A stretch of 63,650 nucleotides of DNA, taken from positions 1 through 63,650 of the forward strand of contig JAGAQA010000017.1 of the NCBI GenBank assembly GCA_017622995.1, given 5' to 3'. The translations under genes were made by a program, and so were the position numbers. Of this stretch, positions 7,423 through 20,456 are shown piece after piece (the first letter of the stretch is position 1; each line of letters starts with the position of its first letter). The notes below the pieces were generated by a model. That model was not told where the DNA came from. It worked only from the letters and a program-made list of their open reading frames with translations, and made no database searches. The DNA is from Oscillospiraceae bacterium. Its GTDB lineage: Bacteria; Bacillota; Clostridia; Oscillospirales; Oscillospiraceae.

Positions 7423-8688
7423 TTATTCAATGTTTTCACCCTTTTTACAGTCCTCCAGGCACAGGGAAACGGCGCAGCACACCGCCATGACGGTTACCGC
7501 CAGATTCCGGTGGGTCATATAGGCATGGATCATGGAGTGATTCCGAAGCGCCATGTACCACACAAAGGGATACAGCGCCAGCAGCAGCATGGGGGCCGCT
7601 TTCCGCCAGGAAAGCCGGAACCGGCAGGCTTTGCTCAGCAGTGCATACGCCAGCACCAGCGCCAGCAGCAGCACCAGCAGCTTTCCCATCGGGTTCACAT
7701 AATTCTGCGCATTCTGCCAGATCACCCGGAACAGGCTCATTCGCTCCTCCGCGCCGGTTCTGCCCAGGGCGTTTTTCAGGGCATCGGCGATCACATTCTG
7801 CTCGGTCAGCAGACTGGCGCAGACCCATTTGCCTGCCCACATGGCGCCGTAGCCCAGCACCCACAGAAGAGAATGGAAAAGCATCCTTTTGCTTTTCTCC
7901 CAGGGGCTCCCCTGGGTGAGCATCCCCTCCACCGCCAGCAGCACACCCAGGGCCGCCAGGGGGTAGGTGAGGAAGTCAAAAAAAGCTGTCAGGATTCCCA
8001 GCCACAGATAGAGCAGCCAGCCCCAGGTTTTTTTGTAGGTTTCCAGCAGCAGCATCCCGGCGGTAAAGGTCAGCAGCAGCAGGTAAACATCCGTAAACTG
8101 AAGGCACAGCGCCGTGGAAACAGGGTTCAGGCACAGAAGGGCCGCCCCCATGGGGATGGCCAGCCGAAGGCCCCCCCGTTTCCGGCAAAGGGCCAGCACC
8201 ACGCAGGCAAGGATCAGCTGCGCCATCATATTGAGCAGCCGGATGTCCGATGGGGTGAAAAACAGCAGCAATGGCTTCAGCAGCAGCAGATACCCATGCC
8301 AGTACCGGGCATAGGTCACCTCCCGGAAGCCCTCCTGCTTCTGGGCATACCGGCTCAGGGAATCCACCGGCACCATATCCCCCGGGGTATACTCCGGCCG
8401 GGGATTTACCAGGGCATCGTGCAGGGGTGTGCCGGTGCCCTCATAGATGGCATTGGAGAGCATCAGGCTGTCCGTAAAGCCGTCCAGCTCCGTACCGTTG
8501 TGGTAGGGTGCCCACTGATACCGGTCCCCTTCCGTAAGGATATAGGGCAGACTGATCTCCACATTGTGCCGCATCCGGGCGGTGGGCAGGGCATATACCG
8601 CGGTCATCAGCAAAATACCTGCCAGAATGGCCCCCAGGATGCTGGCTGCCGCAAGCCCGGCCCTGGAAAGGACAGAGGATTTCTTCAT
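7423..8688 (-). CDS. Polytopic membrane protein, GT-C-like, function unknown
   Basis: 421 residues with about ten predicted membrane helices. After a first helix (about 10-35) there is a ~100-residue extracytoplasmic loop (RMRHNVEISLPYILTEGDR onwards), then alternating hydrophobic segments to the C terminus. The layout resembles GT-C glycosyltransferase-like membrane proteins of Firmicutes, and the late NHSMIHAYMTHRNL segment looks like a conserved loop. I do not recognise a catalytic motif. It is a single-gene unit between the trpA-like operon terminator and the rimP promoter. A second GT-C-like protein is encoded at 54192-55856. Confidence 0.75.
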   Translation of the reverse strand: MKKSSVLSRAGLAAASILGAILAGILLMTAVYALPTARMRHNVEISLPYILTEGDRYQWAPYHNGTELDGFTDSLMLSNAIYEGTGTPLHDALVNPRPEYTPGDMVPVDSLSRYAQKQEGFREVTYARYWHGYLLLLKPLLLFFTPSDIRLLNMMAQLILACVVLALCRKRGGLRLAIPMGAALLCLNPVSTALCLQFTDVYLLLLTFTAGMLLLETYKKTWGWLLYLWLGILTAFFDFLTYPLAALGVLLAVEGMLTQGSPWEKSKRMLFHSLLWVLGYGAMWAGKWVCASLLTEQNVIADALKNALGRTGAEERMSLFRVIWQNAQNYVNPMGKLLVLLLALVLAYALLSKACRFRLSWRKAAPMLLLALYPFVWYMALRNHSMIHAYMTHRNLAVTVMAVCCAVSLCLEDCKKGENIE

Positions 8689-8737: not shown

Positions 8738-8772
8738 AAAAAAGCTACCCGCAAGGTAATCTTGCGGGCAGC
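8738..8772 (-). terminator. Terminator of the ten-gene nucleoside operon
   Basis: Inverted repeat GCTACCCGCAAG / CTTGCGGGCAGC (8744-8755 and 8761-8772) with a 5-base loop. On the minus strand it is followed by six Ts (8738-8743). It lies just downstream of the last operon gene at 8783. Confidence 0.9.
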
Positions 8773-8782
8773 GATTGGGGAA

Positions 8783-9523
8783 TCAGCACTGAGCGGCAAA
8801 TTCTCTGATTTTTGCCTTCATGGCAGGGATGTCCTCCTGGAGCTTCAGGATGGTGCTGCCGACAAACGCGGCATCGCCGCCGGCCTCCTTCACCATGCGC
8901 ACATCCTCCGGGGCATGGACACCCACGCCGCAGTAGATGGGGCGCTGGATGCCGCTGGCCCGCAGGCCCTCCACGCAGTCCTTCAGCGTGGGATACTTGG
9001 GATTCACATAGCCCTGACCGGGAGTGGGCTTGGCCTGAAGGTAGACAAAGCCGTTGGAATCCTTGGCCGAGGCAATCTCCTCCTCCAGCATCTGATACTG
9101 GACATAGCAGGATACCCGCAGGCCGGCATCGATGATCTTCTGCTTCACCTCGTTGCCGGACAGGCCCACCAGCAGAAGGTCCTCAAAGCCGTTGTCCTTG
9201 CAATAGCGGATGTATTTGTCCACGCCGATTTCCAGAATGGTATTCTCATAGGCCAGCAGCAGCAGTTTGGTATGGGGATTCTGACGCTTGATGGTGAGAA
9301 TTTCCTCCATGTAGGCGTCGTAATCGTCACAGTTTTCCAGGGCCTTTGCCATGCGGCTCTTGATCAGATCGCTTTCCAGGTAGGGATCCCGGGAGGGGAA
9401 GTCCACCTCAATGATGCGGCAGCCGGCATCCACATATTCCCTGGCCATCTGAATGCTGGATTCCATGGTGGGGTAACCGTTGGACAGATAGAGAATAATA
9501 TCCATATATTGCTCCTTATTCAC
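8783..9523 (-). CDS. TrpA-like TIM-barrel enzyme (not tryptophan synthesis)
   Basis: 246 residues with tryptophan synthase alpha architecture. The segment IIEVDFPSRDPYLESD aligns with the TrpA active-site loop. The general acid Glu49 is kept (E39) and the SDP-type Asp is kept (D46), but the essential Asp60 position is Glu (E50) and the following Gly-Pro is lost. The phosphate-binding ends GVGVHAPEDV and FVGSTILK are kept, so a phosphorylated substrate is likely. No trpB or other trp gene is present. It is last in the nucleoside operon, overlapping the dehydrogenase gene by 8 bases. A lyase or aldolase role on a sugar phosphate is inference only. Confidence 0.8.
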   Translation of the reverse strand: MNKEQYMDIILYLSNGYPTMESSIQMAREYVDAGCRIIEVDFPSRDPYLESDLIKSRMAKALENCDDYDAYMEEILTIKRQNPHTKLLLLAYENTILEIGVDKYIRYCKDNGFEDLLLVGLSGNEVKQKIIDAGLRVSCYVQYQMLEEEIASAKDSNGFVYLQAKPTPGQGYVNPKYPTLKDCVEGLRASGIQRPIYCGVGVHAPEDVRMVKEAGGDAAFVGSTILKLQEDIPAMKAKIREFAAQC

Positions 9524-10661
9524 CGTAGTAGGCCTGCAGAATCAGGGCCCGGAACTGCTCCACAGAGGGGATAATGGGATTGGTCTTGGTGCAGCCGTCG
9601 GCCTTGGATACCACGGCCATCTCGTCCACCTTGGCCAGGAAGGCTTCCTCGTCGGGGAGCACCTCCTTCAGGGTTCCGGGGATGCCAAGAATGTGGTTCA
9701 GTTCTTTGACCACCTGGATCAGGTCTCTGCGGCCGATGGAGGCGGCAAAGGCATCGTACTTTGCCTTGGCATAGGGCTCATCGGAATTGAATTTCATGAT
9801 GTAGGGCAGCAGAATGGCATCCGCCACGCCGTGAGAGATATGGAAGAAGCCCCCAAGGGTCTGGGCGATGGAGTGCACAATGCCCAGAGACACGTTGGTA
9901 AAGGCCATGCCCGCAATCATAGAGGCGTTTGCCATGATCTCTCTGGCATCCAGATTGCTGCCGTCGGCATAGGCCACCGGCAGAACATCGATGATGTCCT
10001 TGGCTGCCGCCTGGGCCAGCACGTCGCTGAGGTAGTGGGCCCGGTTGGAAACCAGGGCCTCCAGGGCATGGGTCAGCGCGTCCATACCGGTCTCGGCGGT
10101 GATGCGGGGCGGCATGGAGGCGCAGACCTCCGGGTCGCAGATGGCAATATCGGGCATCATCTCCATATTGCCCAGGCCTCTCTTCATGCCCTCGTCATCG
10201 GTAATGACCACGGAGCGGGAAACCTCGCTGGCGGAGCCGGAGGTGGAGGGAATGCAGCAGTACTTGGCCTTATGGCGCAGGGTGGGGAAGGGGTTGGGAG
10301 GCAGAATGTCCTCCATTTTGGTCAGCTCGGGATGCTCGTAGAACACCCACATGGTCTTGCCCGCATCCATGGCGGAGCCGCCGCCCATGCCCACAATCAG
10401 GTCGGGCTCAAACTCCAGCATTTCCTTGGCGCCCCGGCGAACCGTGGCGATGCTGGGATCGGGCTCCACGCCGGAGATCACCCGCACCTGGGCCCCGCTC
10501 TCCTGGAAATAGCCGATCACCTTATCCAGCATACCGCTGCGCTGCATGGAGGAACCGCCCACCACGATGCACACGCGCTTATAGTGCAGGGTTTTAATGT
10601 ACTCCAGGCAGCCCTTGCCGAACATCAGCTCGCTGCCTGCCAGCTTAACAGGTCTCATCAT
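9516..10661 (-). CDS. Iron-containing (group III) alcohol dehydrogenase
   Basis: NAD(P)-dependent alcohol or aldehyde oxidoreductase of the Fe-ADH family, 381 residues. The nucleotide-binding motif GGGSAMDAGK is at 93-102. The metal-binding region runs from ETGMDALTHALEAL to GIVHSIAQTLGGFFHISHG, with the expected Asp/His ligands. RBS AAAGGAG lies upstream of tandem ATG codons. It sits between btpA-like and trpA-like genes, so it probably reduces a small aldehyde formed in that pathway. Substrate unknown. Confidence 0.9.
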   Translation of the reverse strand: MMRPVKLAGSELMFGKGCLEYIKTLHYKRVCIVVGGSSMQRSGMLDKVIGYFQESGAQVRVISGVEPDPSIATVRRGAKEMLEFEPDLIVGMGGGSAMDAGKTMWVFYEHPELTKMEDILPPNPFPTLRHKAKYCCIPSTSGSASEVSRSVVITDDEGMKRGLGNMEMMPDIAICDPEVCASMPPRITAETGMDALTHALEALVSNRAHYLSDVLAQAAAKDIIDVLPVAYADGSNLDAREIMANASMIAGMAFTNVSLGIVHSIAQTLGGFFHISHGVADAILLPYIMKFNSDEPYAKAKYDAFAASIGRRDLIQVVKELNHILGIPGTLKEVLPDEEAFLAKVDEMAVVSKADGCTKTNPIIPSVEQFRALILQAYYGE

Positions 10662-10684
10662 AATAAAACACTCCTTTGTTATGC

Positions 10685-11473
10685 TCAGCCCTTGGCTTCG
10701 ATCAGTTCTCTTGCCAGGGCGTAGTCAATGGGATTGGTCAGGACACCGTCCTTTTTGAAGCTGGAGCCCACAATGCAGCCGTCCGCGATGGTCAGCTGCT
10801 CCCGGACATTGGCGGGCTTCACGCCGCTGCCCGCGAAGACAGGGATTTTCACCACTTTTTTCACCCGGGCAATCATCTCAATGGGGGTCTCCTCACCGAT
10901 GACGGAACCGGTAATGATGATGCCGTCGGCACCAGCCCCCGCCGCCTCCTTGGCGCTGGCCTCAATGGAAATGCTGGGGCAAAGCATATAGCTGTGCTTG
11001 ACCTGGCAGTCGGCCAGGATCTTGATGTGCTCCAGGCCCATTCTCTTGCGGTAGTTTACGCAGTCGTGGGCACAGGGATAGATGATGCCGTCGGAGAACA
11101 GCACGGTATCCACAAACACCGGCACCCGGATAAAGGTGGCGCCTGCCGCGGCGGCAATGGCCAGGGATGCCTCGTAATCATTGAAGGCCGCGTCCACACC
11201 TACGGGAATGGACACCGCGTCCGCCACCTTCCGGGCGGCGGCAGCCAGAGCCGCGATCTGGGCCTTGTTCAGCTTGGCCGTAAAGGGTGTGTCTCCCATA
11301 TTCTCCACGATAACGGCATCCACACCGGCCTTTTCCAGGGTTTGGGCATCCTGCACCGCCTGGGAAAGAATCTTTTCCATATCTCCCCCGTAGCCGAAGC
11401 TTCCGGGCAGAGGCAGGCAGTGGACCATTCCGATGACGGAGCCCGCGCCGTTTGCAATCAACGCTTTTGACAT
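10685..11473 (-). CDS. BtpA/SgcQ family TIM-barrel protein
   Basis: 262 residues. The N-terminal IGMVHCLPLPGSFGYGG, the central DAVIVENMGDTPF, and the C-terminal GADGIIITGSVIGEETP and FAGSGVKPANVREQL are hallmarks of the BtpA/SgcQ family. Members are annotated as photosystem I biogenesis factors in cyanobacteria. In heterotrophs they occur in sugar and nucleoside gene clusters, with no established reaction that I know of. Start ATG 11473 has GGGGAGA upstream. The context implies an enzymatic step after nucleoside cleavage. Confidence 0.85.
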   Translation of the reverse strand: MSKALIANGAGSVIGMVHCLPLPGSFGYGGDMEKILSQAVQDAQTLEKAGVDAVIVENMGDTPFTAKLNKAQIAALAAAARKVADAVSIPVGVDAAFNDYEASLAIAAAAGATFIRVPVFVDTVLFSDGIIYPCAHDCVNYRKRMGLEHIKILADCQVKHSYMLCPSISIEASAKEAAGAGADGIIITGSVIGEETPIEMIARVKKVVKIPVFAGSGVKPANVREQLTIADGCIVGSSFKKDGVLTNPIDYALARELIEAKG

Positions 11474-11489
11474 AACCAATCTCCCCTTA

Positions 11490-12251
11490 TCAAAGCTTGT
11501 CGCCGTATTTCACATGATAGTTATAAATGCCTTCCAGAGCGGCCCGGCACAGCAGATCCTCCGCGTCGGTGCGGTCCTGGCCCTTCAGAACCTCCTTCAG
11601 GTTTTCCAGAACGGTGGTCATGGTCAGCACGCAGGACTTGACCCCCATGAGTCTGCCCACGGTGAGGATGCAGGAGGTTTCCATATCGCAGCCGATTACC
11701 CCCAGTTTTTTCAGCTCCGCGAAGCCCGGGGCCATATCCCGGCCGAATTCCAGAGAGAACTTGGAATCGTGGGTCTGGGTATAGAAGCCGTCCATGGTGC
11801 AGTTGATGCCGTTTTCGTATTCGGCGCCCATCTGCGTGACCGTTTCATTCATCACATTCACCAGCTCCAGATCCGCCACGGCGGGGTAGGAGGGCTCCAC
11901 ATAGGTATTGCTGGTGCTCTCCCGGCGCATGGCGGCGATGGGAATGATGAATTTGCCCAGCATATCATCCCGCAGGGCCATGGCGGTGCCCATCCGCACA
12001 GCCACCTTCATACCGGCCTCGTACATCTCCTCCATGGCGATGGCCGCGCTGGGCGCGCCGATGCCGGTGGAGGTAACGGTGATTCTCACGCCCTTGTAGG
12101 TGCCGGTATAGGTGTTGAATTCCCGCTGGAAGGCAACCTTCTGGGGGTTGTCCAGATACTGCTTCACCACCTCCACACGCCAGGGATCACCGGAAAAAAT
12201 CACATAGCTTCCCACGGTTTCGGGGGACGCGCCCATGTACAGTGTTTTCAT
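11490..12251 (-). CDS. Nucleoside phosphorylase (NP-I, PNP/UP type)
   Basis: Phosphorolysis of a nucleoside to base plus (deoxy)ribose-1-phosphate. Seen: the phosphate-binding GDPWR (21-25), TVTSTGIGAPSAA (60-70), the MRMGT motif with R86, and the ribose-binding Met-Glu pair in GCDMETS (M190-E191). This is the hexameric uridine/purine phosphorylase fold. The base-recognition segment GFYTQTHDSKFSLEFG matches neither uridine phosphorylase (Q/R pair) nor DeoD clearly, so base specificity is open. Its stop overlaps the start of... the upstream pfkB gene's last codons by 4 bases, so the two are coupled. Confidence 0.9.
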   Translation of the reverse strand: MKTLYMGASPETVGSYVIFSGDPWRVEVVKQYLDNPQKVAFQREFNTYTGTYKGVRITVTSTGIGAPSAAIAMEEMYEAGMKVAVRMGTAMALRDDMLGKFIIPIAAMRRESTSNTYVEPSYPAVADLELVNVMNETVTQMGAEYENGINCTMDGFYTQTHDSKFSLEFGRDMAPGFAELKKLGVIGCDMETSCILTVGRLMGVKSCVLTMTTVLENLKEVLKGQDRTDAEDLLCRAALEGIYNYHVKYGDKL

Positions 12252-13213
12252 TTTATTCTCTCCTTTATCTGCGTCATTTTAGCTTCCAGCTGCTCCGCGG
12301 TGGGCAGATTGGAACAGCAGCCCACATCCCGCAGTACAAAATCCGCAAGGGCAGCCCCCAGACAGCCGCACTCCACAGCCGGACGGTTATTGAGCACGCC
12401 ATACAGGAAACCGGACATATACGCATCGCCGGAGCCTGTGGTATCCACAATCTCCTCTTTGGAAATACCGCTGGTGGGAATTCTGTGCTCCCGGAAGCCA
12501 TTGTCTGTTTTCTCATACACAATGCTGCCGCTGCCGCCCAGGGTGGTGACGATATACAGGGCTCTGCCGATCTCAAAGAGCTTGGTTATCCCGTCGCAGC
12601 CGTAGAGCTGTTCAATCAGTTCCCGCTCCACCTCGTTGGTGAAAATGATGGTGCTGCTCTCCAGAAGCTCCCGCAGGAAATCCACCGGGAAGGCATCCAT
12701 GTCGTCCTTCATGCCGAAGGCCACCGGCACACCGGCTGCCTTGCAGCCCTCCAGGAAATAGCGGTTGTCCGGCTTGCTGGCCACGGTAATCACGCCCAGG
12801 CGGGTGTTTTCAAAGATGCCGCTGTCAATGGGCCGGGCATGCTTTTTGTCCATGGAGCCGGGGTAGAAGATGGTGATATGATCCCCGTTTTTATCCTGTA
12901 ACAGGTAGCAGGTGGAGGTTGCCTCCCCGGGAATCACGGTCACGGCGTCGGTGGGTATGTTGTTGCGGGTCAGATAGGCCCGGAACCCATTCTCCTCCCA
13001 GTCCGGCCCCACCCGGAGCACGGGCATTGCCCGTTTGCCCAGGCGGCAGAGGGCGGAGGCAATGTTGACCCCGCAGCCGCCGTAATTGATTTTCGTATTG
13101 TCGGCATTGGTGACAATGGAGGTGAACCCCACCCGGGCCGGTTCCGCGATCTTGATGATGTGGTCCATGCTCACATAGCCGCTGGTCAGAACATCGTATT
13201 TGTATTCTTTCAT
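12248..13213 (-). CDS. PfkB-family carbohydrate/nucleoside kinase
   Basis: Ribokinase-fold ATP-dependent kinase, 321 residues. The N-terminal GGCGVNIASALCRLG (45-59) is the substrate-binding di-glycine region. The C-terminal DTTGSGDAYMSGFLYG (257-272) carries the anion hole and catalytic base D263. It overlaps the phosphorylase gene by 4 bases, so the likely substrate is either the imported nucleoside or the pentose-1-phosphate produced next to it. The latter would give a pentose-1,5-bisphosphate, as in haloarchaeal nucleoside catabolism. This is inference. Confidence 0.9.
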   Translation of the reverse strand: MKEYKYDVLTSGYVSMDHIIKIAEPARVGFTSIVTNADNTKINYGGCGVNIASALCRLGKRAMPVLRVGPDWEENGFRAYLTRNNIPTDAVTVIPGEATSTCYLLQDKNGDHITIFYPGSMDKKHARPIDSGIFENTRLGVITVASKPDNRYFLEGCKAAGVPVAFGMKDDMDAFPVDFLRELLESSTIIFTNEVERELIEQLYGCDGITKLFEIGRALYIVTTLGGSGSIVYEKTDNGFREHRIPTSGISKEEIVDTTGSGDAYMSGFLYGVLNNRPAVECGCLGAALADFVLRDVGCCSNLPTAEQLEAKMTQIKERIK

Positions 13214-13220
13214 GCTTCCC

Positions 13221-13787
13221 TCACAGTTCTCCGCCGTCCAGCTTTTGGAAAAGCTCCTGGCTGGTCATCACCTGGCCCAGGTATTTGCGGATGTCCTCCA
13301 AATGCACCTGGTTCACCACCTCGGAATTGGTGGCCACGCAATCGCTGAGGACGATTGGATTGTAGTCCAGGTAGAAGGCATCCGTCACCGTGGCCCGGAT
13401 GCAGCAGTTCGTCTTCGTTCCTACAATAATCACATTTTTCACATCCAGCTGCCGCAGCACCAGATCCAGATCCGTGCCGAAAAAGCCGCTGTAGCGCCGC
13501 TTGCGGATGACATAATCCTTCTTTTCGTCCACCGGCAGCATGGGATCGATTTCAATGCCCCAGGTGCCCTCGATGCAGTTGGGCCGCATGGAGGCGATGC
13601 GCCGGTCAGGCTTGTCCTTCCGGTTGCAGTGCTGCATGAAAATGATGGGGCAGTCGTGGGCCCGGCAGGCGTCCAGAACCCTGCGGATCACAGGCAGAAT
13701 CTCCCGGTTTTGGGGATAGTACACCAGGCCCTCCGGATCGGTGAAATCCCGAACCATATCCACAATGATCAGTGCTGTCTGCTTCAT
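13221..13787 (-). CDS. Isochorismatase-like cysteine hydrolase
   Basis: 188-residue amidohydrolase of the isochorismatase/nicotinamidase superfamily. The catalytic triad is visible as D10 (LIIVDMVRDF), K96 (VIRKRRYSGFFGTDL) and C129 (GTKTNCCIRATVTDAF). Relatives include nicotinamidase, N-carbamoylsarcosine amidase and the pyrimidine-degrading RutB. Being inside the nucleoside operon, hydrolysis of a nitrogenous base derivative or ureido compound is plausible. It overlaps the upstream permease gene by 4 bases. Confidence 0.85.
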   Translation of the reverse strand: MKQTALIIVDMVRDFTDPEGLVYYPQNREILPVIRRVLDACRAHDCPIIFMQHCNRKDKPDRRIASMRPNCIEGTWGIEIDPMLPVDEKKDYVIRKRRYSGFFGTDLDLVLRQLDVKNVIIVGTKTNCCIRATVTDAFYLDYNPIVLSDCVATNSEVVNQVHLEDIRKYLGQVMTSQELFQKLDGGEL

Positions 13788-14695
13788 ACCTGGAACCCTC
13801 TGACCTTCACATTTTTGTACTTGACGTAGGAGGCCGCGCCCAGCACCACAATCATCAGCAGGTAGGGGAAGCAGTCAAACAGGCCGGAGGCCTCTCCCGC
13901 GTACACACTCAGGTTTACCGCCAGGGAACGGGACAGTCCGAACAGGATGGCGTACAGGCTGGACTGCACCGGCTTGCCCCGGCCGCAGTAGATTGCCGCC
14001 AGCGCGATGAAGCCCCGGGCCGCCACCATGGAATTGGTAAACAGGCCCAGCCGGTCCAGGGCCAGATTCATTCCCGCCAGAGCGCAGCCTACGGCGCCCA
14101 GAAGAATGGCCGCGTACTTGTACAGATCCACCCGCAGGCCGATGGCCTTTGCCGCGTCCTCGCTTTCACCCACCACCCGGACATATACGCCGAAGCGGGT
14201 GCGGTACATCAGCAGGGAGGTCAGGAAGATCAGGAGGAAGCTCACATAGGTAAGCACCGGATGCCCGCTGAGGATGGGCCCCAGAATGGGAATATCCTTG
14301 ATGATGGGAATGTTGAGCTTCAGGGCGTTTACATCGAACTCGGGGATGATGATGTTGGAGGACTTCATCATAACCAGGATAAAGCCTGCCACGGCGGTGG
14401 ACATCATGTTGATGGCCAGGCCCACAATAATCACATTGCCCTTCATGGTCACGCCGAAGAAGGCGAAAATCAGGCCGTAGAGCAGGGTTGTCAGCAGGCA
14501 CACCAGCAGCGCGAAGGCAAAATTCCGGGTGAAATAGTAGGTCAGCACGGAAAACAGAGCGCCATTGAGCATCATGCCCTCCAGCGCGATATTCAGAACG
14601 TTGGCCTTGTAGGCAAACAGTCCGCCCAGCACCGCCAGAATGATGGGGGCGCTGTGATAAACGCAGTCATAGAGAATACTGATCATCAGCTGCAT
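13784..14695 (-). CDS. Nucleoside-type ABC transporter permease (second)
   Basis: 303 residues, about eight to ten membrane helices, of the branched-chain permease superfamily (BPD_transp_2), as in the YufQ/NupQ permeases of BMP-dependent importers. Characteristic are LGGLFAYKANVLNIALEGMM near the N terminus and VDLYKYAAILLGAVGCALAG. It overlaps the partner permease gene by 10 bases and pairs with it to form the membrane channel. Confidence 0.92.
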   Translation of the reverse strand: MQLMISILYDCVYHSAPIILAVLGGLFAYKANVLNIALEGMMLNGALFSVLTYYFTRNFAFALLVCLLTTLLYGLIFAFFGVTMKGNVIIVGLAINMMSTAVAGFILVMMKSSNIIIPEFDVNALKLNIPIIKDIPILGPILSGHPVLTYVSFLLIFLTSLLMYRTRFGVYVRVVGESEDAAKAIGLRVDLYKYAAILLGAVGCALAGMNLALDRLGLFTNSMVAARGFIALAAIYCGRGKPVQSSLYAILFGLSRSLAVNLSVYAGEASGLFDCFPYLLMIVVLGAASYVKYKNVKVRGFQV

Positions 14696-15768
14696 GTCTT
14701 GCTCTCCTTTCCCTTTTTCCCCTTCAGTCTTTCGAACAGGTGGAATCGACCGTCGATGAACTTGACTGCCAGGAACAGGACAATCAGCGCCTGAATCAGG
14801 GCAACGATCTCCTTGGGCACATTGGTATACATATTGATCTTATCCGAGCCGGTTTTCAGCGCCGCGTAGAAAATGGAGGCGATGAAAATACCCACCGGGT
14901 TGTGGCCGCCCATCAGCGCGATGAGCATACCGTCCCAGCCCAGGCCGGGGTTTCCGGAGAAGGTCAGGGTGTAGCGGTACTGATCCTCCATCATCCATCC
15001 GGCACCGGCAAAGCCTGCCAGAGCGCCGGACAGGAGCATGAGAAGAATAATCTTCTTTCCCACATTCATGCCGGTGGCCTCGGCGAATTCCGCGTTCATG
15101 CCCATGGCCTTGATTTCATAGCCCAGGCGGCCCCGGCGCATATACAGGGTCATCACAATCCAGATGGCCACCACAATGAAGAAGAAGGCGGTGAGTCTGG
15201 ATTTTCCGAAGATACGGGAGAACATGGCGCTTTCCGACACCATAGGTGTGCACACATAGCCGGAACCGTTGTCCCGGAAGATGCCGGTGGTCAGAAACTC
15301 CAGCACCTTGGCCAGGGCGTAGTTCAGCATCAGCGTCACCACCATTTCGTCTGCCCGGAGCTTTGCCTTGAGAAGGGCAGGCACCAGGGAGTAGGCCATG
15401 CCGCACAGCACGCCTACGGCCAGGCAGACCAGCTTGACCACGAAGGGATTTCCCGTCATGCGGCTGCCCAGAATACCGGCAAAGAAGGCGCCCAGCAGCA
15501 GCGAGCCCTCTACGCCCATGTTGTAAATGTTGGCCTTAAAGGTCACGGCAATGGCCAGACCCGTGAGGATCATGGGGCCCGCGTAGTGCAGGGTGTTCTG
15601 GAAGCCAACCTTGGTAAACAGGGACTTCTGCAGCAGCACCCAGTAGGTATTCAGGGGATTCTCCCCAATCACCGCGATGACGATGCCGCCAACCAGGAAG
15701 GCCAGCAAAATGGGGATCAGACAGTTCAGCAGACCCCGCAGGCCCGCGCCCAGCTTTTTTCCGTTCAT
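14686..15768 (-). CDS. Nucleoside-type ABC transporter permease (first)
   Basis: 360 residues with about nine membrane helices, of the YufP/NupP type. The segment GLAIAVTFKANIYNMGVEGSLLLGAFFAG matches the family core, and AEATGMNVGKKIILLMLLSGALAGFAGAG is the cytoplasmic coupling region. It overlaps the ATPase gene by 4 bases. Works with the second permease, the two-domain ATPase and the lipoprotein encoded at 17391. Confidence 0.92.
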   Translation of the reverse strand: MNGKKLGAGLRGLLNCLIPILLAFLVGGIVIAVIGENPLNTYWVLLQKSLFTKVGFQNTLHYAGPMILTGLAIAVTFKANIYNMGVEGSLLLGAFFAGILGSRMTGNPFVVKLVCLAVGVLCGMAYSLVPALLKAKLRADEMVVTLMLNYALAKVLEFLTTGIFRDNGSGYVCTPMVSESAMFSRIFGKSRLTAFFFIVVAIWIVMTLYMRRGRLGYEIKAMGMNAEFAEATGMNVGKKIILLMLLSGALAGFAGAGWMMEDQYRYTLTFSGNPGLGWDGMLIALMGGHNPVGIFIASIFYAALKTGSDKINMYTNVPKEIVALIQALIVLFLAVKFIDGRFHLFERLKGKKGKESKTCS

Positions 15769-17294
15769 TGTGCCGCCTCCTTATCTGTAATACCGGCCAT
15801 GAGCAGACCGATCTGCATCATATCCGTCTTGGTGGGATCCACCTCGCCGGTGACTTCGCCCTTGTACAGAACGATGACCCGGTCGGACAGGCTCATAATC
15901 TCCGGCAGCTCACTGGAAATCAGGATTACGGCATTGCCCTGATTTCTGTACTCCAGAAGCTGACGGTGAATGGACTCAATGGAGCCGATGTCAATGCCCC
16001 GGGTGGGCTGGCAGGCAATCAGCAGCTTGGGCCCCGCGCTGAGCTCCCGGGCCACAATGATCTTCTGGGCGTTGCCGCCGGACAGGGCCCCGACGGTGCC
16101 TTCCAGGTCGCCCACCCGAATATCAAAGCGTTCAATCTGGCTGTCCCGGCGCTGACGCATGACCTTGGTGTTCATCAGGCCGCCCCGGCATACCTCTTTC
16201 TGGGTGTGGTAGCCCGCCACGGCGTTTTCCGTCAGGGTCATGGTCCGGCACAGGCCCTGGGCAAACCGGTCCTCGGGAATGATGCCGATGCCCTTCTGCC
16301 GCAGCTTATCCGGCCAGATGTTGGTTACGTCCTCTCCGTCGAACATCACCCTGCCGGCAGTTGCCTCCATTAGGCCGCTGATGATCTTCACCAGCTCGCT
16401 CTGTCCGTTGCCTTCCACGCCCGCGATGCCCAGGATCTCTCCTCTGGCTACCTGGAAGGAAACGTTTTTCAGGCACTCCTTGCCAAAGCTGTTGATGGTG
16501 GTCAGGTTCTCCGCCTGATAGATCACGCCGCCGTCTGATACCTTTCTGCGGTCATTCTCCACCGTCAGCATCACATCCCGGCCTACCATCATCTGCGCCA
16601 GCTCCTGCTCCGAGGTGTCCTTGGTGCGCATGGAGCCCACGACCTTGCCCCGCTTGATGACCACAACGCTGTCGGATACTTCCATCACCTCCCGGAGCTT
16701 GTGGGTGATGACAATGATGGTCTTGCCCTTTTCCTTCAGGTCCTTCAGTCTGTCAATCAGATCGTTGGCCTCCTGGGGGGTCAGAACGGCGGTGGGCTCG
16801 TCCAGAATGAGAATGTCCACATTCCGGTAGAGCATTTTCAGGATTTCCACCCGCTGGCGGCTGCCAACGGATATATCTTCAACCTTATCCAAAGGATTGA
16901 GTTCAAAGTGATAGTTGTGAATCAGCTCCTCCACCTTCCGGATTTCTTCCTTCCGGTCGATGAGGCCGCCTTTTTTTGTAATCTCCGCGCCCAGCAGAAT
17001 ATTCTCATAGACGCTGAGGCTGGGCACCAGCTTGAAATGCTGGTGCACCATGCCAATGCCGTTGGCAATGGCATCGATGGGGCTTCTCAGCTTCACCTGG
17101 CTGCCCCGGATCCGGATTTCGCCCTCTGTGGGCTCCAACAGGCCGTAGAGCATATTCATCAGCGTGGTCTTGCCCGCGCCGTTTTCGCCCACGATACAGG
17201 TGATCTCTTTTTCGGGGATCGCCAAATCGATGTGATCGTTGGCGGTAAAGGAGCCGAACCGCTTGGTCAGCCCAACTGTTTGAATCATATACAT
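15765..17294 (-). CDS. Nucleoside-type ABC transporter, tandem ATPase
   Basis: 509 residues with two nucleotide-binding domains, the RbsA/YufO layout. The first has Walker A GENGAGKT (36-43), signature [12 protein letters not shown] and [10 protein letters not shown]. The second has a degenerate Walker A (GVEGNGQSE) and signature [25 protein letters not shown] lies 6 bases before the ATG. Energises uptake of the ligand bound by the BMP lipoprotein. Confidence 0.95.
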
Positions 17295-17390
17295 GTTTTT
17301 GTCCTCATTGTTCCTTGTCTGGCATCTGGCTGCAAAGGCTCGTCTCTGAAGCCGGGGCTGTCTCCATTTGAGACAGCCCCGGGCGTCCGA

Positions 17391-18620
17391 TTACTTGAAG
17401 TTGATGTTGGGGCAGGTGCTCTGATCGAAGCTGTCGCCGTTCTGCATATTGGTCACCTTGATGGTGCCGTCAGAAATCTTCGCGGACAGATCCTTCACAT
17501 AGTCCTGGATCTCCGTCCACTTGGCCTGGGCCTCGTCGGTCTTGGCAATGGCGGCAGAGATGGTTGCCAGATCGGTGATGGAGGTGGAGCCGCTGGCCAG
17601 ATCGAACATGGTGATGCGGTCATACTTATCCAGCTCGCCGTTCATCAGGGCCTCGGTCAGTTCCTTCACAACCACCCGGGTGTTCTTGATGACGGAGGTC
17701 AGGATGTAGCCGGGCTGCTGGCCGTCCTTGTTGGCGTCGCAGTGGATCGCCAGCTTGCCTTCTTCCTTGGCCTTGGCGGCAACGCCGTCGCCGATGGAAC
17801 CGGCCACCGCGTAAACCACGTTGGCGCCGTTGTCATAGTAGGTGCCTGCCACGGTGCTGCCGCCGGCAACATCGGAGAAGCCCGCATCGTACTTTGCGTA
17901 GTAGTCATAGGTTACACCCAGCTCCTGGGCAACGTGCTGCACGCCTTCGATAAAGCCGTAGCTGAACACGGTGATGCCGTCGGAATTGGTGCCGCCGATG
18001 AAGCCCATGGCTCTTGCCTGGGAGGTGGGGGTAAAGCTGTAGCCGTCGCCGAACAGCACATCGGCATTTTCGTTGACCAGGGTTGCCAGCGCGCCCGCCA
18101 GGTAGGAGGACTCATTGACGTTGTACAGAATGGAAATCACGTTGTCGTGGATGGTCTTGCCCTCGGCATCCACGTTGGGGGTGGCGTTAAACACAACAAA
18201 GGTGGTGTCGGGGTACTGGACCGCGATGGGATCGGCACCGGCTTCGCCGCTGACCAGCGCATCGAAATCGTACTCCATGGAGAAAATCAGGTTGTAGCCG
18301 TCCTCAGCCAAAGCGGCCAGGGTGTCACCGGTGCTCTCGGTGGGCTCCACAACCTTGTAGGCAATGCCGTACTGGTCGGCCAGCTCCTTGGCGCCCTCCA
18401 CAGCGGACTGGTTGTAGCCGTTGTCGTTCTGACCGGAAGCGTCGCAGACTACCGCAATCTTTACCTCTGCGGCGGCGGGGGCCTCCGGGGCGGGAGCAGC
18501 AGTCTCACCGGCGGGAGCAGCGGGGGCTGCGGTGGTCGCAGCGGGAGCGGAGCTGCCGCCGCAGGCTGCCAGACTCAGCACCATAACGGCAGCAAGGGCC
18601 AATGTCAGGATCTTTTTCAT
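17391..18620 (-). CDS. BMP-family nucleoside-binding lipoprotein
   Basis: Solute receptor of the operon's ABC importer. A lipoprotein signal (LTLALAAVMVLSLAAC) with lipobox Cys at about 20 is followed by an Ala/Pro-rich tether to about residue 52. The BMP domain then starts with VKIAVVCDASGQNDNGYNQSA and contains YDYYAKYDAGFSDVAGG. This PnrA/BmpA family typically binds purine or pyrimidine nucleosides. First gene of the operon, behind a good promoter at 18712-18740. Confidence 0.95.
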   Translation of the reverse strand: MKKILTLALAAVMVLSLAACGGSSAPAATTAAPAAPAGETAAPAPEAPAAAEVKIAVVCDASGQNDNGYNQSAVEGAKELADQYGIAYKVVEPTESTGDTLAALAEDGYNLIFSMEYDFDALVSGEAGADPIAVQYPDTTFVVFNATPNVDAEGKTIHDNVISILYNVNESSYLAGALATLVNENADVLFGDGYSFTPTSQARAMGFIGGTNSDGITVFSYGFIEGVQHVAQELGVTYDYYAKYDAGFSDVAGGSTVAGTYYDNGANVVYAVAGSIGDGVAAKAKEEGKLAIHCDANKDGQQPGYILTSVIKNTRVVVKELTEALMNGELDKYDRITMFDLASGSTSITDLATISAAIAKTDEAQAKWTEIQDYVKDLSAKISDGTIKVTNMQNGDSFDQSTCPNINFK

Positions 18621-18711
18621 AATTTGGTTCCTCCTTGTTTTTTTGTCAGCCAGATTATGGCTGGATCTGTTGTCTTGTTATCATGTTGTCATGACCACTA
18701 GAACTATTGCT

Positions 18712-18740
18712 ATCTTACTCCAGGATATTTCCCTTGTCAA
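18712..18740 (-). promoter_or_regulatory. SigA-type promoter of the nucleoside operon
   Basis: Minus strand: TTGACA (18735-18740), a 17-base spacer, TAAGAT (18712-18717). The leader of about 85 bases to the ATG holds a small AGCCA/TGGCT hairpin (about 18651-18665) and a GTCATGAC palindrome (about 18688). Either could be an operator. I recognise no purine riboswitch. Confidence 0.8.
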
Positions 18741-19040: not shown

Positions 19041-20420
19041 TTACTTCAGCTCCGGCCAGTAGCCCTTGTTGGCCTCGATCATCTCGTCCAGAATCTCCTT
19101 GGCCACGGTCATGCTGGGCACGGTCTTGTTCAGGGTGAAGGCCTGCAGCACCTTCTCGTAGCTGCCTTCGATGCAGCCCTCCACCAGCAGCTTCTCGGAG
19201 TTCACCTGCTGCATCATGAGGCCCTGCTGGAACAGGGGAATGGGATCCCGGGCGATGACCTCGGGGCCGTTCTTGCCGATGTAGGCAGGCAGCTCCACCA
19301 TGGCGTCATAGGGCATATTGGGAATGGCTCCCCGGTTCTCGGTGATGACCAGGAAGCGGGCCTTGGTGTCGTTTTTCAGGGCGATGGCCAGGTCGGCAAT
19401 CCAGTCGCCGTGGCTGCCTGCATAGAAGACCTTCTCATCCACCTTGCCGGTGGCGAGATAGGTGTCCACGCCGTCGAACAGGTTCTTCTCCCGGGTTTCC
19501 ATAACCTCGTTGGCACGGGTGTGGGTGGGATCGGAATGCTCCACAAACTCCTTCTGCTGCAGGTAGTAGTTGAGGTAGGTGTTGGGCAGGTACTCGGGGA
19601 AGTTCTCCATGATCTCATAGACGCCCTTCCACACATAGTACCAGCTGCCCTTGGTGTGCCGGTTGCCCTCGGTGCCGGTGCCCTCCTGCTTGACGGACAC
19701 GCCCAGGGCGGCCTTGTCCTTCAGGTAGGCCGCGGGCATCAGGATCTGGTGCTCCTTGATGTAGGCCCGCAGAGGCTCCATCAGGTCCTTACCCTTGTAC
19801 TCGATGGAGGTGAACCAACCGAAGTGGTTCAGGCCAAAGTAATCGTAGACGATGTTCTCCTTGTCCTTGATTTCCATGGCGGCAGCCACCACGTCGATGA
19901 TGGCGATGGGTATATCGCAGATGTTGATGATCCGGGCGTTGGGCCGCAGCTTCCGGCAGGCCTCAGAGACGATGGCGGCGGGGTTGGAGTAGTTCAGGAT
20001 CCAGTAGTCCTTCTTGGCGTATTTCTCCGCGTCGTCAATGACCTTCATCATGGGGAAGATGGTGCGCATACCGTAGGCCATACCGCCGGTGCCGCAGGTC
20101 TCCTGACCCACGCAGCCGTGGCGCAGGGGGATTTTCTCGTCCTGCTCCCGCATGGCGTACTTGCCCACGCGCATCTGGGCGAAGATGAAGGAGGCGTCGG
20201 TGTAGGCGGTTTCGGGGTCGGTGGTGACGGTGAGCTGAATGTCGCACTTGAGATCCTGGTGCAGAATCCAGTCCACAACCACAGCTACCTTGTCCTGGCG
20301 CTCCTTGTCGATGTCGAACAGACGGATTTCGTCCACTTCCAGCTCGGCCTTGCGCAGGGCGATGGACTTGACAATACCGGCGGTGAAGGTGCTGCCGCCG
20401 CCAACAATGGTAATAATCAT
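19041..20420 (-). CDS. malH: GH4 6-phospho-alpha-glucosidase
   Basis: NAD+- and metal-dependent family 4 glycosidase cleaving phosphorylated alpha-glucosides made by the PTS. The N-terminal IVGGGSTFTAG is the NAD site. The motif Cys-Asp-Ile-Pro (C168-P171 from this start) is the alpha-glucosidase type; beta enzymes carry CNVP there. About 459 residues, normal length. AAAGGA is 8 bases before ATG 20420 and only 2 before ATG 20426, so I prefer 20420. Last gene of an antiterminator-EIICB-GH4 operon. Confidence 0.9.
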   Translation of the reverse strand: MIITIVGGGSTFTAGIVKSIALRKAELEVDEIRLFDIDKERQDKVAVVVDWILHQDLKCDIQLTVTTDPETAYTDASFIFAQMRVGKYAMREQDEKIPLRHGCVGQETCGTGGMAYGMRTIFPMMKVIDDAEKYAKKDYWILNYSNPAAIVSEACRKLRPNARIINICDIPIAIIDVVAAAMEIKDKENIVYDYFGLNHFGWFTSIEYKGKDLMEPLRAYIKEHQILMPAAYLKDKAALGVSVKQEGTGTEGNRHTKGSWYYVWKGVYEIMENFPEYLPNTYLNYYLQQKEFVEHSDPTHTRANEVMETREKNLFDGVDTYLATGKVDEKVFYAGSHGDWIADLAIALKNDTKARFLVITENRGAIPNMPYDAMVELPAYIGKNGPEVIARDPIPLFQQGLMMQQVNSEKLLVEGCIEGSYEKVLQAFTLNKTVPSMTVAKEILDEMIEANKGYWPELK

Positions 20421-20456
20421 ACTCATGTTCCTTTCTTTCAGAGATGGGGAATTTCA

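Follow-up and report, generated by a model that had tools for sequence, protein, structure and literature searches.

A conserved ten-gene operon with a BtpA-family and a TrpA-like barrel, possibly for the catabolism of nucleoside sugars

We describe a ten-gene operon, shared by several gut bacteria, in an Oscillospiraceae bacterium (assembly GCA_017622995.1, contig JAGAQA010000017.1). The stretch analysed, positions 1 to 63,650 of the contig, is called the window below. All ten open reading frames are on the minus strand and span 8783 to 18620. They code for a BMP lipoprotein, a tandem ATP-binding cassette (ABC) ATPase, two BPD_transp_2 permeases, an isochorismatase-like cysteine hydrolase, a PfkB kinase, an NP-I phosphorylase, a BtpA-family barrel, an iron-type alcohol dehydrogenase (Fe-ADH) and a Trp_syntA-like barrel (TrpA-like protein), as the initial annotation had named them. 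The grouping of these genes is far beyond chance; the operon is real and conserved as a unit. We tentatively suggest, as a possible rather than a probable reading, that it is a transferable catabolic operon which serves fermentative growth by importing nucleosides and dismantling their pentose via a pentose-bisphosphate route with a cleavage step.

We scanned a genome collection for BtpA with short exact peptide patterns. Because such patterns find close relatives only, the 25 loci obtained (59–70% identity) are a lower bound. Most of them are titled Lachnospiraceae or other Clostridia and one (L053) is a metagenome-assembled genome of a Spirochaetaceae; named carrier species include Coprococcus comes and Robinsoniella peoriensis. 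The complete ten-gene set is present in identical order in 21 of the 25 loci, one of which (L033) has an additional gene after the BMP gene. Contig ends interrupt the operon in another three (L032, L048 and L056). In the last one, L038, an internal deletion around 9251–9432, in a sequence free of N, takes most of permease B, the cysteine hydrolase, the PfkB kinase and the start of the phosphorylase and fuses the start of permease B to the middle of the phosphorylase gene; the remainder of the operon is retained. The Fe-ADH gene is found in all 24 loci whose contig extends to it. In L056, a metagenomic contig, it is split into two frames (1033–2300), either by a sequencing error or as a pseudogene. 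The phosphorylase gene is likewise found wherever the contig extends to it and is partial in L038 and L056. The flanks fetched for 18 of the 25 loci encode a GntR/UTRA-type regulator, and 11 loci have a VOC (glyoxalase-fold) gene within or beside the operon (families named from one and two members, respectively); neither adjoins the operon of the window.

The linkage was also seen in a survey of 200 genomes from the family of G553, the Robinsoniella genome of locus L047; rows of several of the seven genomes with matches had built the profiles. Operon-type TrpA-like proteins (above 350 bits) occur in seven genomes and operon-type BtpA proteins (above 400 bits) in the same seven. Apart from one TrpA-like homologue of 184 bits (G620), the remaining matches did not exceed 104 bits. 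Five of the seven genomes (G548, G549, G550, G553 and G554) are already among the scan loci, and G668 (L175) probably is too, being apparently the genome of L050 (identical start of the TrpA-like protein). G731 is clearly outside the scan, and its operon is complete; replacement of its cysteine hydrolase by a formamidase was considered and rejected, the hydrolase gene being intact. The same genome has a formamidase/acetamidase-family gene immediately upstream, followed by a GntR-like gene and then the operon (L176, 1277–2167). Conservation of the gene set in relatives, which the initial annotation had proposed as a check, is thus borne out by the scan loci and by the seven genomes. In the window's own family (150 genomes) TrpA-like matches above 100 bits were obtained only in the window's genome and in G031, the next best match having 62 bits; the two listed congeners of the window's genome gave no TrpA-like match in this survey. 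The genomes listed from the two surveys (55 of the window's family and 149 of the family of G553) have none in common, so the two families seem to be distinct and horizontal transfer is likely. The G+C content is uninformative on transfer (57–59% across the operon, 53–61% for the window).

The TrpA-like protein scores above the cut-off of PF00290 but, with about 91 bits (90.6–91.0), below that of the trpA equivalog model TIGR00262 (102.35). We tested 14 carrier genomes for trpA as well as for two genes discussed below, namely 12 genomes from the 25 loci, the window's genome and G031. A true trpA (281–303 bits) is present besides the operon copy in 10 of them, that is, in 10 of the 12 other ten-gene carriers tested; none was found in the window's genome, G031, G547 and G552. 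For trpB there is no match in the window's genome and a weak one in G031 (152 bits, below the cut-off). G547 and G552 have a trpB without an adjoining trpA (G547:C85 and G552:C2; L182 and L183), which suggests the use of indole.

For a comparison of residues we aligned 27 operon rows (above 300 bits), in which the window's protein is contained twice (win and L126) so that 26 copies are distinct, 68 low-scoring rows (at most 110 bits), consisting of 67 presumed true TrpA proteins and one non-TrpA homologue (L125, G552), and three intermediate rows. E33, D35, E44, E87, Q157, K159, Y191 and C192 are invariant across the operon rows. The equivalent columns of the 68 low-scoring rows have, in this order, E (68), G (68), E or D, mostly A/L, V (67), S (62) or R (4), A (63) and mostly V/I. 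K159 is found in every operon row, in one of the three intermediate rows and in none of the 68 low-scoring ones. Every one of the 27 operon rows has G193, G195 and G216, and all but one have S217 (26). The protein retains the catalytic acids of TrpA, E33 and E44, which we take to be equivalent to E49 and D60 of TrpA and to share their catalytic roles, and the phosphate loops, but not the VTG loop after strand 6, in whose place there is another sequence. In the AlphaFold model (mean pLDDT 95.1) residues 154–157 form the sixth barrel strand and K159 follows immediately. In class I aldolases the Schiff-base lysine is typically located at the end of strand 6. In the model K159 would resemble this lysine, a match of position and not proof. 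In a tree with every third low-scoring row, a group of six rows (support 99/93) unites the two entries of the window's protein with four copies titled Lachnospiraceae. The branch that sets the operon group apart has weak support (57/41), with long-branched distant homologues nearby.

Two distant homologues have different neighbours. In L174 (G620:C105, 6556–13731) the TrpA-like gene is accompanied by parts of a mannose-type phosphotransferase system (PTS), of which IID alone is confirmed by Pfam, by two ADP-ribosylglycohydrolase-family genes and by a Fe-ADH gene; this is perhaps another riboside route. In L177 (G552:C78, 8466–11867) a very divergent TrpA-family gene adjoins a formamidase-family gene and a GAT-type PTS permease.

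The BtpA protein belongs to the BtpA/SgcQ family (TIGR00259, 238.5 bits, cut-off 153.4). We know of no reaction for this family, and our literature search found none assigned to it. The nearest structures to the predicted model (pLDDT 86.8) are phosphate-binding barrels including TrpF, HisF, phosphoribosyl isomerase and hexulose-phosphate synthase, and the epimerases NanE and RPE are also among the neighbours. Only phosphate-binding barrel folds are among the matches listed, which excludes nothing. The invariant H18 is at the end of strand 1 and D155/Q157 are within strand 5; these are the strands which presumably carry the acid/base pair in TrpF and HisA.

The remaining enzymes are assigned at the level of the family. 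The phosphorylase is nearest to uridine phosphorylases and stays below the cut-off of TIGR01718 (161.6 bits, cut-off 280.3). It retains the residues aligned with R30, R48, R91, T94, M197 and E198 of Escherichia coli uridine phosphorylase, which we take to be the phosphate- and ribose-binding residues. Arg168, presumably a base-site residue of the E. coli enzyme, aligns with a histidine beside a gap. His8, which we assume to bind the 5'-hydroxyl, seems to be Tyr5, a residue invariant among the copies covering it; this position is outside the HMMER alignments and is not used as evidence. The best solved relative of the PfkB kinase is MJ0406, filed as a sugar kinase, and the scores of hidden Markov models do not settle its subfamily; none of the 17 listed NCBIfam models reaches its cut-off. 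The models of AdhE (336 bits) and FucO (243 bits) come closest to the Fe-ADH, which stays below both cut-offs; this likeness is consistent with a small aldehyde as substrate. The cysteine hydrolase is nearest to uncharacterised structures of the isochorismatase family, followed by a group including N-carbamoylsarcosine amidase-like proteins and RutB. Its D10, K96, C128 and C129 are invariant in 24 aligned copies and presumably include the catalytic triad. A nicotinamidase was considered and rejected, as the histidine metal motif of these enzymes is absent by eye.

We suggest that the pathway could proceed in the following steps. The BMP-type ABC importer would take up a nucleoside, and the NP-I enzyme would free the base and yield a pentose-1-phosphate. 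The PfkB kinase would then add the 5-phosphate to give a pentose 1,5-bisphosphate. BtpA, whose phosphate-binding barrel resembles the phosphoribosyl isomerases in its build, might convert this compound into a ketose bisphosphate, which the TrpA-like barrel might cleave by a retro-aldol reaction to a three-carbon phosphate and a two-carbon aldehyde. Finally, the Fe-ADH would reduce the aldehyde to the alcohol and re-oxidise NADH (reduced nicotinamide adenine dinucleotide). The freed base would be the substrate of the cysteine hydrolase. These roles can be permuted, the TrpA-like barrel being the isomerase instead; an isomerase role for BtpA and an aldolase role for the TrpA-like protein make the most economical choice. 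The scheme draws on gene identity, linkage, family membership and conserved residues, and its substrates and products are presumed ones. The window's genome has no match to the Rubisco large subunit (PF00016), which was matched in four of the 17 genomes searched (G548, G549, G550 and G552), and none to the archaeal e2b2-type ribose-1,5-bisphosphate (R15P) isomerase. The latter is above the cut-off in none of the 14 carriers; weaker matches of 114–174 bits in five of them may be MtnA relatives. These two absences from the window's genome, together with the lysine and the acids of the TrpA-like protein, fit the outline of the scheme. A more specific version appears distinctly doubtful to us: a bacterial pentose-bisphosphate pathway with its own enzymes, in which BtpA is the R15P isomerase, the TrpA-like protein is a lysine-dependent aldolase from the TrpA family which splits a pentulose phosphate, and gut bacteria excrete the two-carbon alcohol.

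Several observations weigh against the pentose-bisphosphate scheme. Phosphopentomutase (DeoB) is above the cut-off in 12 of the 14 carriers including the window's genome, with no match in G550 and only partial ones in G552. Ordinary ribose-1-phosphate therefore needs no new route, which counts against the scheme or suggests a non-standard nucleoside. A search confined to the ten operon proteins found neither phosphatase nor FucA-type aldolase domains; with no phosphatase among them cleavage of the bisphosphate would give a phosphorylated two-carbon aldehyde, an odd substrate for a dehydrogenase. PfkB scores higher with the IolC (83 bits) and ribokinase (71) models than with those of ribose-1-phosphate (R1P) kinase (60), and all these scores are far below the cut-offs; for the two R1P kinase models they are 60.3 of 330 (NF053626) and 56.6 of 500 (NF041134). 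With 61–84% identity to the window's copy in the loci having it, the cysteine hydrolase belongs to the better conserved proteins, and it has only a putative role and no place in the core scheme. Relatives of BtpA are often located beside PTS-like or FGGY-kinase-like systems and not beside phosphorylases. The survey of 200 genomes also gave 10 more in which BtpA relatives (at most 215 bits) occur but no TrpA-like gene of the operon type. The active site of the TrpA-like protein is incomplete in the intermediate homologues: one copy in G031 lacks K159 and the other lacks E33 (Q), and the copy in G620 lacks both E44 and K159, so that two of the three are without the lysine. The two G031 copies, each without a different active-site residue, belong to a variant operon without phosphorylase and dehydrogenase (L057, G031:C21, 2121–13199). 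Its order is BMP, ATPase, two permeases, cysteine hydrolase, PfkB, BtpA, TrpA-like 1, a transporter of the major facilitator superfamily (nearest to bile-salt and lactate models), TrpA-like 2 and GntR. The scheme in the initial annotation is partly supported: the two absences from the window's genome and the lysine and acids of the TrpA-like protein fit its outline, but its substrate, intermediates and barrel reactions are presumed ones, and the presence of DeoB, the missing phosphatase, the variant without phosphorylase and the unplaced hydrolase speak against it.

The best rival, which we regard as somewhat unlikely, is that the operon handles a non-standard nucleoside with a modified base or sugar, the base having an amide or ureido group. 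The phosphorylase would free the base, the hydrolase would attack this group, and kinase, barrels and dehydrogenase would process a sugar inaccessible to phosphopentomutase and the pentose phosphate pathway. With DeoB in 12 of the 14 carriers a special route for plain ribose is unnecessary, and the good conservation of the hydrolase and its solved relatives, among them N-carbamoylsarcosine amidases and RutB, point in the same direction. Distant BtpA relatives are found in suggestive company. In L098 (G319:C84, 1300–15236; 35% identity) xanthine dehydrogenase-like genes (by eye), GntR, PfkB, BtpA, a BMP importer and a dihydropyrimidinase follow one another, which may link BtpA to bases of the pyrimidine or hydantoin type, and in L095 (38% identity) the relative is near a ureidoglycolate lyase homologue. 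Formamidase-family genes are located upstream of the G731 operon and by the distant TrpA-family gene in G552. The formamidase was, however, seen beside one operon only, no search for it having been made in the flanks of the others; the BtpA proteins of L095 and L098 are distant relatives, and none of the evidence here names the substrate.

Plain salvage of nucleoside ribose we consider unlikely. Here the barrels would isomerise or epimerise a sugar monophosphate into the pentose phosphate pathway and the Fe-ADH would be accessory. The epimerases NanE and RPE among the structural neighbours of BtpA agree with this, and so do the BtpA relatives in L106, L108 and L114, which are beside PTS-like components (by eye) with no kinase or phosphorylase among the neighbours read; beside a PTS a sugar monophosphate is expected. 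In this case, however, two barrels and a dehydrogenase would be superfluous, and the dehydrogenase gene is present in 24 of the 24 loci where the contig reaches it.

Chemistry like that of TrpF and TrpA on a 5-phosphorylated N-riboside is very unlikely. PfkB would phosphorylate the riboside, BtpA would open it in an Amadori-type reaction and the TrpA-like protein would release glyceraldehyde 3-phosphate and a two-carbon remnant. The structural nearness of BtpA to TrpF and HisF and the two TrpA catalytic acids would suit such a reaction, as would L057, which is without phosphorylase yet has importer, hydrolase, kinase, BtpA and two TrpA-like genes. Against it stand the phosphorylase gene in every locus reached of the main operon, the partial ones in L038 and L056 included, and the fact that ordinary nucleosides have no NH to rearrange. 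Finally, a true tryptophan synthase alpha chain, in this place by happenstance, is largely refuted and extremely improbable as the identity of the TrpA-like gene; a trpA function of the protein was half of a refuting outcome named in the initial annotation. The evidence is divided as follows: the PF00290 score, the catalytic acids and the trpB genes of G547 and G552 without true trpA would allow it, but 90.6 bits are below the TIGR00262 cut-off, the VTG loop is replaced, a true trpA coexists in most other carriers and the window's genome has no trpB match.

The features of the operon are given in Table 1. Adjacent genes overlap by 4–10 bases or are separated by 7–23 bases with the exception of BMP and ATPase (96 bases). 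The description of mostly overlapping or nearly touching ends in the initial annotation thus applies to most genes. The GTG start listed for the TrpA-like gene (9523) is probably wrong, as the ATG at 9505 matches the start of most relatives; with this start the overlap with the Fe-ADH gene vanishes. Judged from homologues, the true start of BtpA is probably the ATG at 11473. The promoter (18712–18740) and terminator (8738–8772) proposed earlier were both recovered by our scan. Such sites are little above chance between 7500 and 20000 on both strands, with 10 promoter-like sites against 6.4 ± 2.6 in shuffles and 13 terminator-like sites against 9.9 ± 3.4, so that the two sites of the operon are credible by their position alone. 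Riboswitches were not matched at the Rfam gathering threshold in L033, L034, L037, L042, L044, L047 and L052, nor at E up to 1 in the window between 18500 and 19100. A shared operator 5′ of the BMP gene was not evident, no inverted repeat being present in more than six of 23 upstream regions (maximum of two in ten block shuffles, which ignore kinship). Upstream of the operon is a GH4 glycosidase-like reading frame (19041–20426) and downstream a membrane-protein-like one (7423–8688), both judged by eye.

Table 1. Features of the operon in the window
Feature	Position	Strand	Basis or remark
Promoter-like site TTGACA-17-TAAGAT	18712–18740	-	About 91 bases before the BMP start; consensus match only
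BMP/PnrA-type substrate-binding lipoprotein, 409 aa	17391–18620	-	PF02608, 121.7 bits
Tandem ABC ATPase, 509 aa	15765–17294	-	Profile matches
Permease A, 360 aa	14686–15768	-	PF02653
Permease B, 303 aa	13784–14695	-	PF02653
Isochorismatase-like cysteine hydrolase, 188 aa	13221–13787	-	Profile matches, solved relatives
PfkB kinase, 321 aa	12248–13213	-	Profile matches, solved relatives
NP-I phosphorylase	11490–12251	-	Profile matches, residue alignment
BtpA/SgcQ-family TIM barrel	10685–11473	-	TIGR00259; ATG start proposed at 11473
Iron-type alcohol dehydrogenase (Fe-ADH), 381 aa	9516–10661	-	Profile matches
TrpA-like TIM barrel, 240 aa from proposed ATG at 9505	8783–9505	-	Profile, alignment, predicted structure
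Terminator-like hairpin, then T run	8744–8772	-	12 pairs, 8 G-C; scan

Our literature search, for which most subscription journals were out of reach, found no description of the ten-gene cassette. Its biochemical logic is only partly readable and it is best filed under nucleoside-sugar catabolism; a less likely outcome is that it represents two enzyme reactions not known before. If the pentose-bisphosphate scheme is true, nucleoside sugars in the gut would bypass the pentose phosphate pathway with carbon discarded as a two-carbon alcohol, two orphan barrel types would gain testable reactions, among them the BtpA/SgcQ family, and its confirmation would establish a new bacterial way to use nucleosides. 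Even if it is wrong, a cassette of ten genes in fixed order in 21 loci is a well-defined target for the function of BtpA.

Several known systems share parts with the operon. Tryptophan synthase alpha has the Pfam family, the two catalytic acids and the phosphate loops in common with the TrpA-like protein, which differs by the replaced loop after strand 6, by the invariant K159, D35 and E87 and by the lack of a TrpB match in the window's genome. The sgc operon of E. coli also has a BtpA/SgcQ-family barrel (SgcQ) in a sugar operon; import is by a PTS there, and the operon is not known to have a phosphorylase or a TrpA-like gene. The dihydroxyacetone phosphate (DHAP) shunt for 5'-deoxynucleosides proceeds through MtnA and a class II aldolase, both of which are missing from the ten operon proteins; the operon also has a kinase, which is needless for a 5'-deoxy sugar. 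Like the proposed scheme, the shunt converts the sugar of a nucleoside to DHAP and an aldehyde (PMC10986504, PMC12632272, PMC8102628). With the Rubisco-linked pentose bisphosphate pathway of the Thermococcales (PMC9700705), the operon might share the idea of an R1P kinase; the window's genome is without matches to its Rubisco and archaeal R15P isomerase.

The closest described logic is that of the non-carboxylating pentose bisphosphate pathway of haloarchaea. This pathway consists of phosphorylase, R1P kinase, isomerase, phosphatase, aldolase and glycolaldehyde reductase; a PfkB kinase converts R1P to R15P, and the proposed end is the reduction of glycolaldehyde, giving DHAP and a reduced two-carbon compound, ethylene glycol (PMC9700705). 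The isomerase gene shares an operon with the PfkB kinase gene in eight of eight species and with a uridine-phosphorylase-like gene in six of eight, and the reductase was formerly annotated as glycerol-1-phosphate dehydrogenase (PMC9700705). At the level of families the joint encoding of a uridine-phosphorylase-like protein and a PfkB kinase is the same here. The Fe-ADH scores 27.3 bits with the model of the haloarchaeal glycolaldehyde reductase (NF053832, cut-off 550), and the AdhE and FucO models fit better. The initial annotation had seen in the operon the outline of this route or of the DHAP shunt carried out by different enzyme families. For phosphorylase, kinase and reductase the broad classes are indeed alike; counterparts of the isomerase, phosphatase and aldolase were not found, the window's genome having no e2b2-type isomerase and the ten proteins neither a HAD phosphatase nor a FucA-type aldolase. 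In the proposed scheme the two barrels must cover the remaining steps. Compared with the haloarchaeal pathway, the operon has two other barrels instead and adds a dedicated importer and a cysteine hydrolase.

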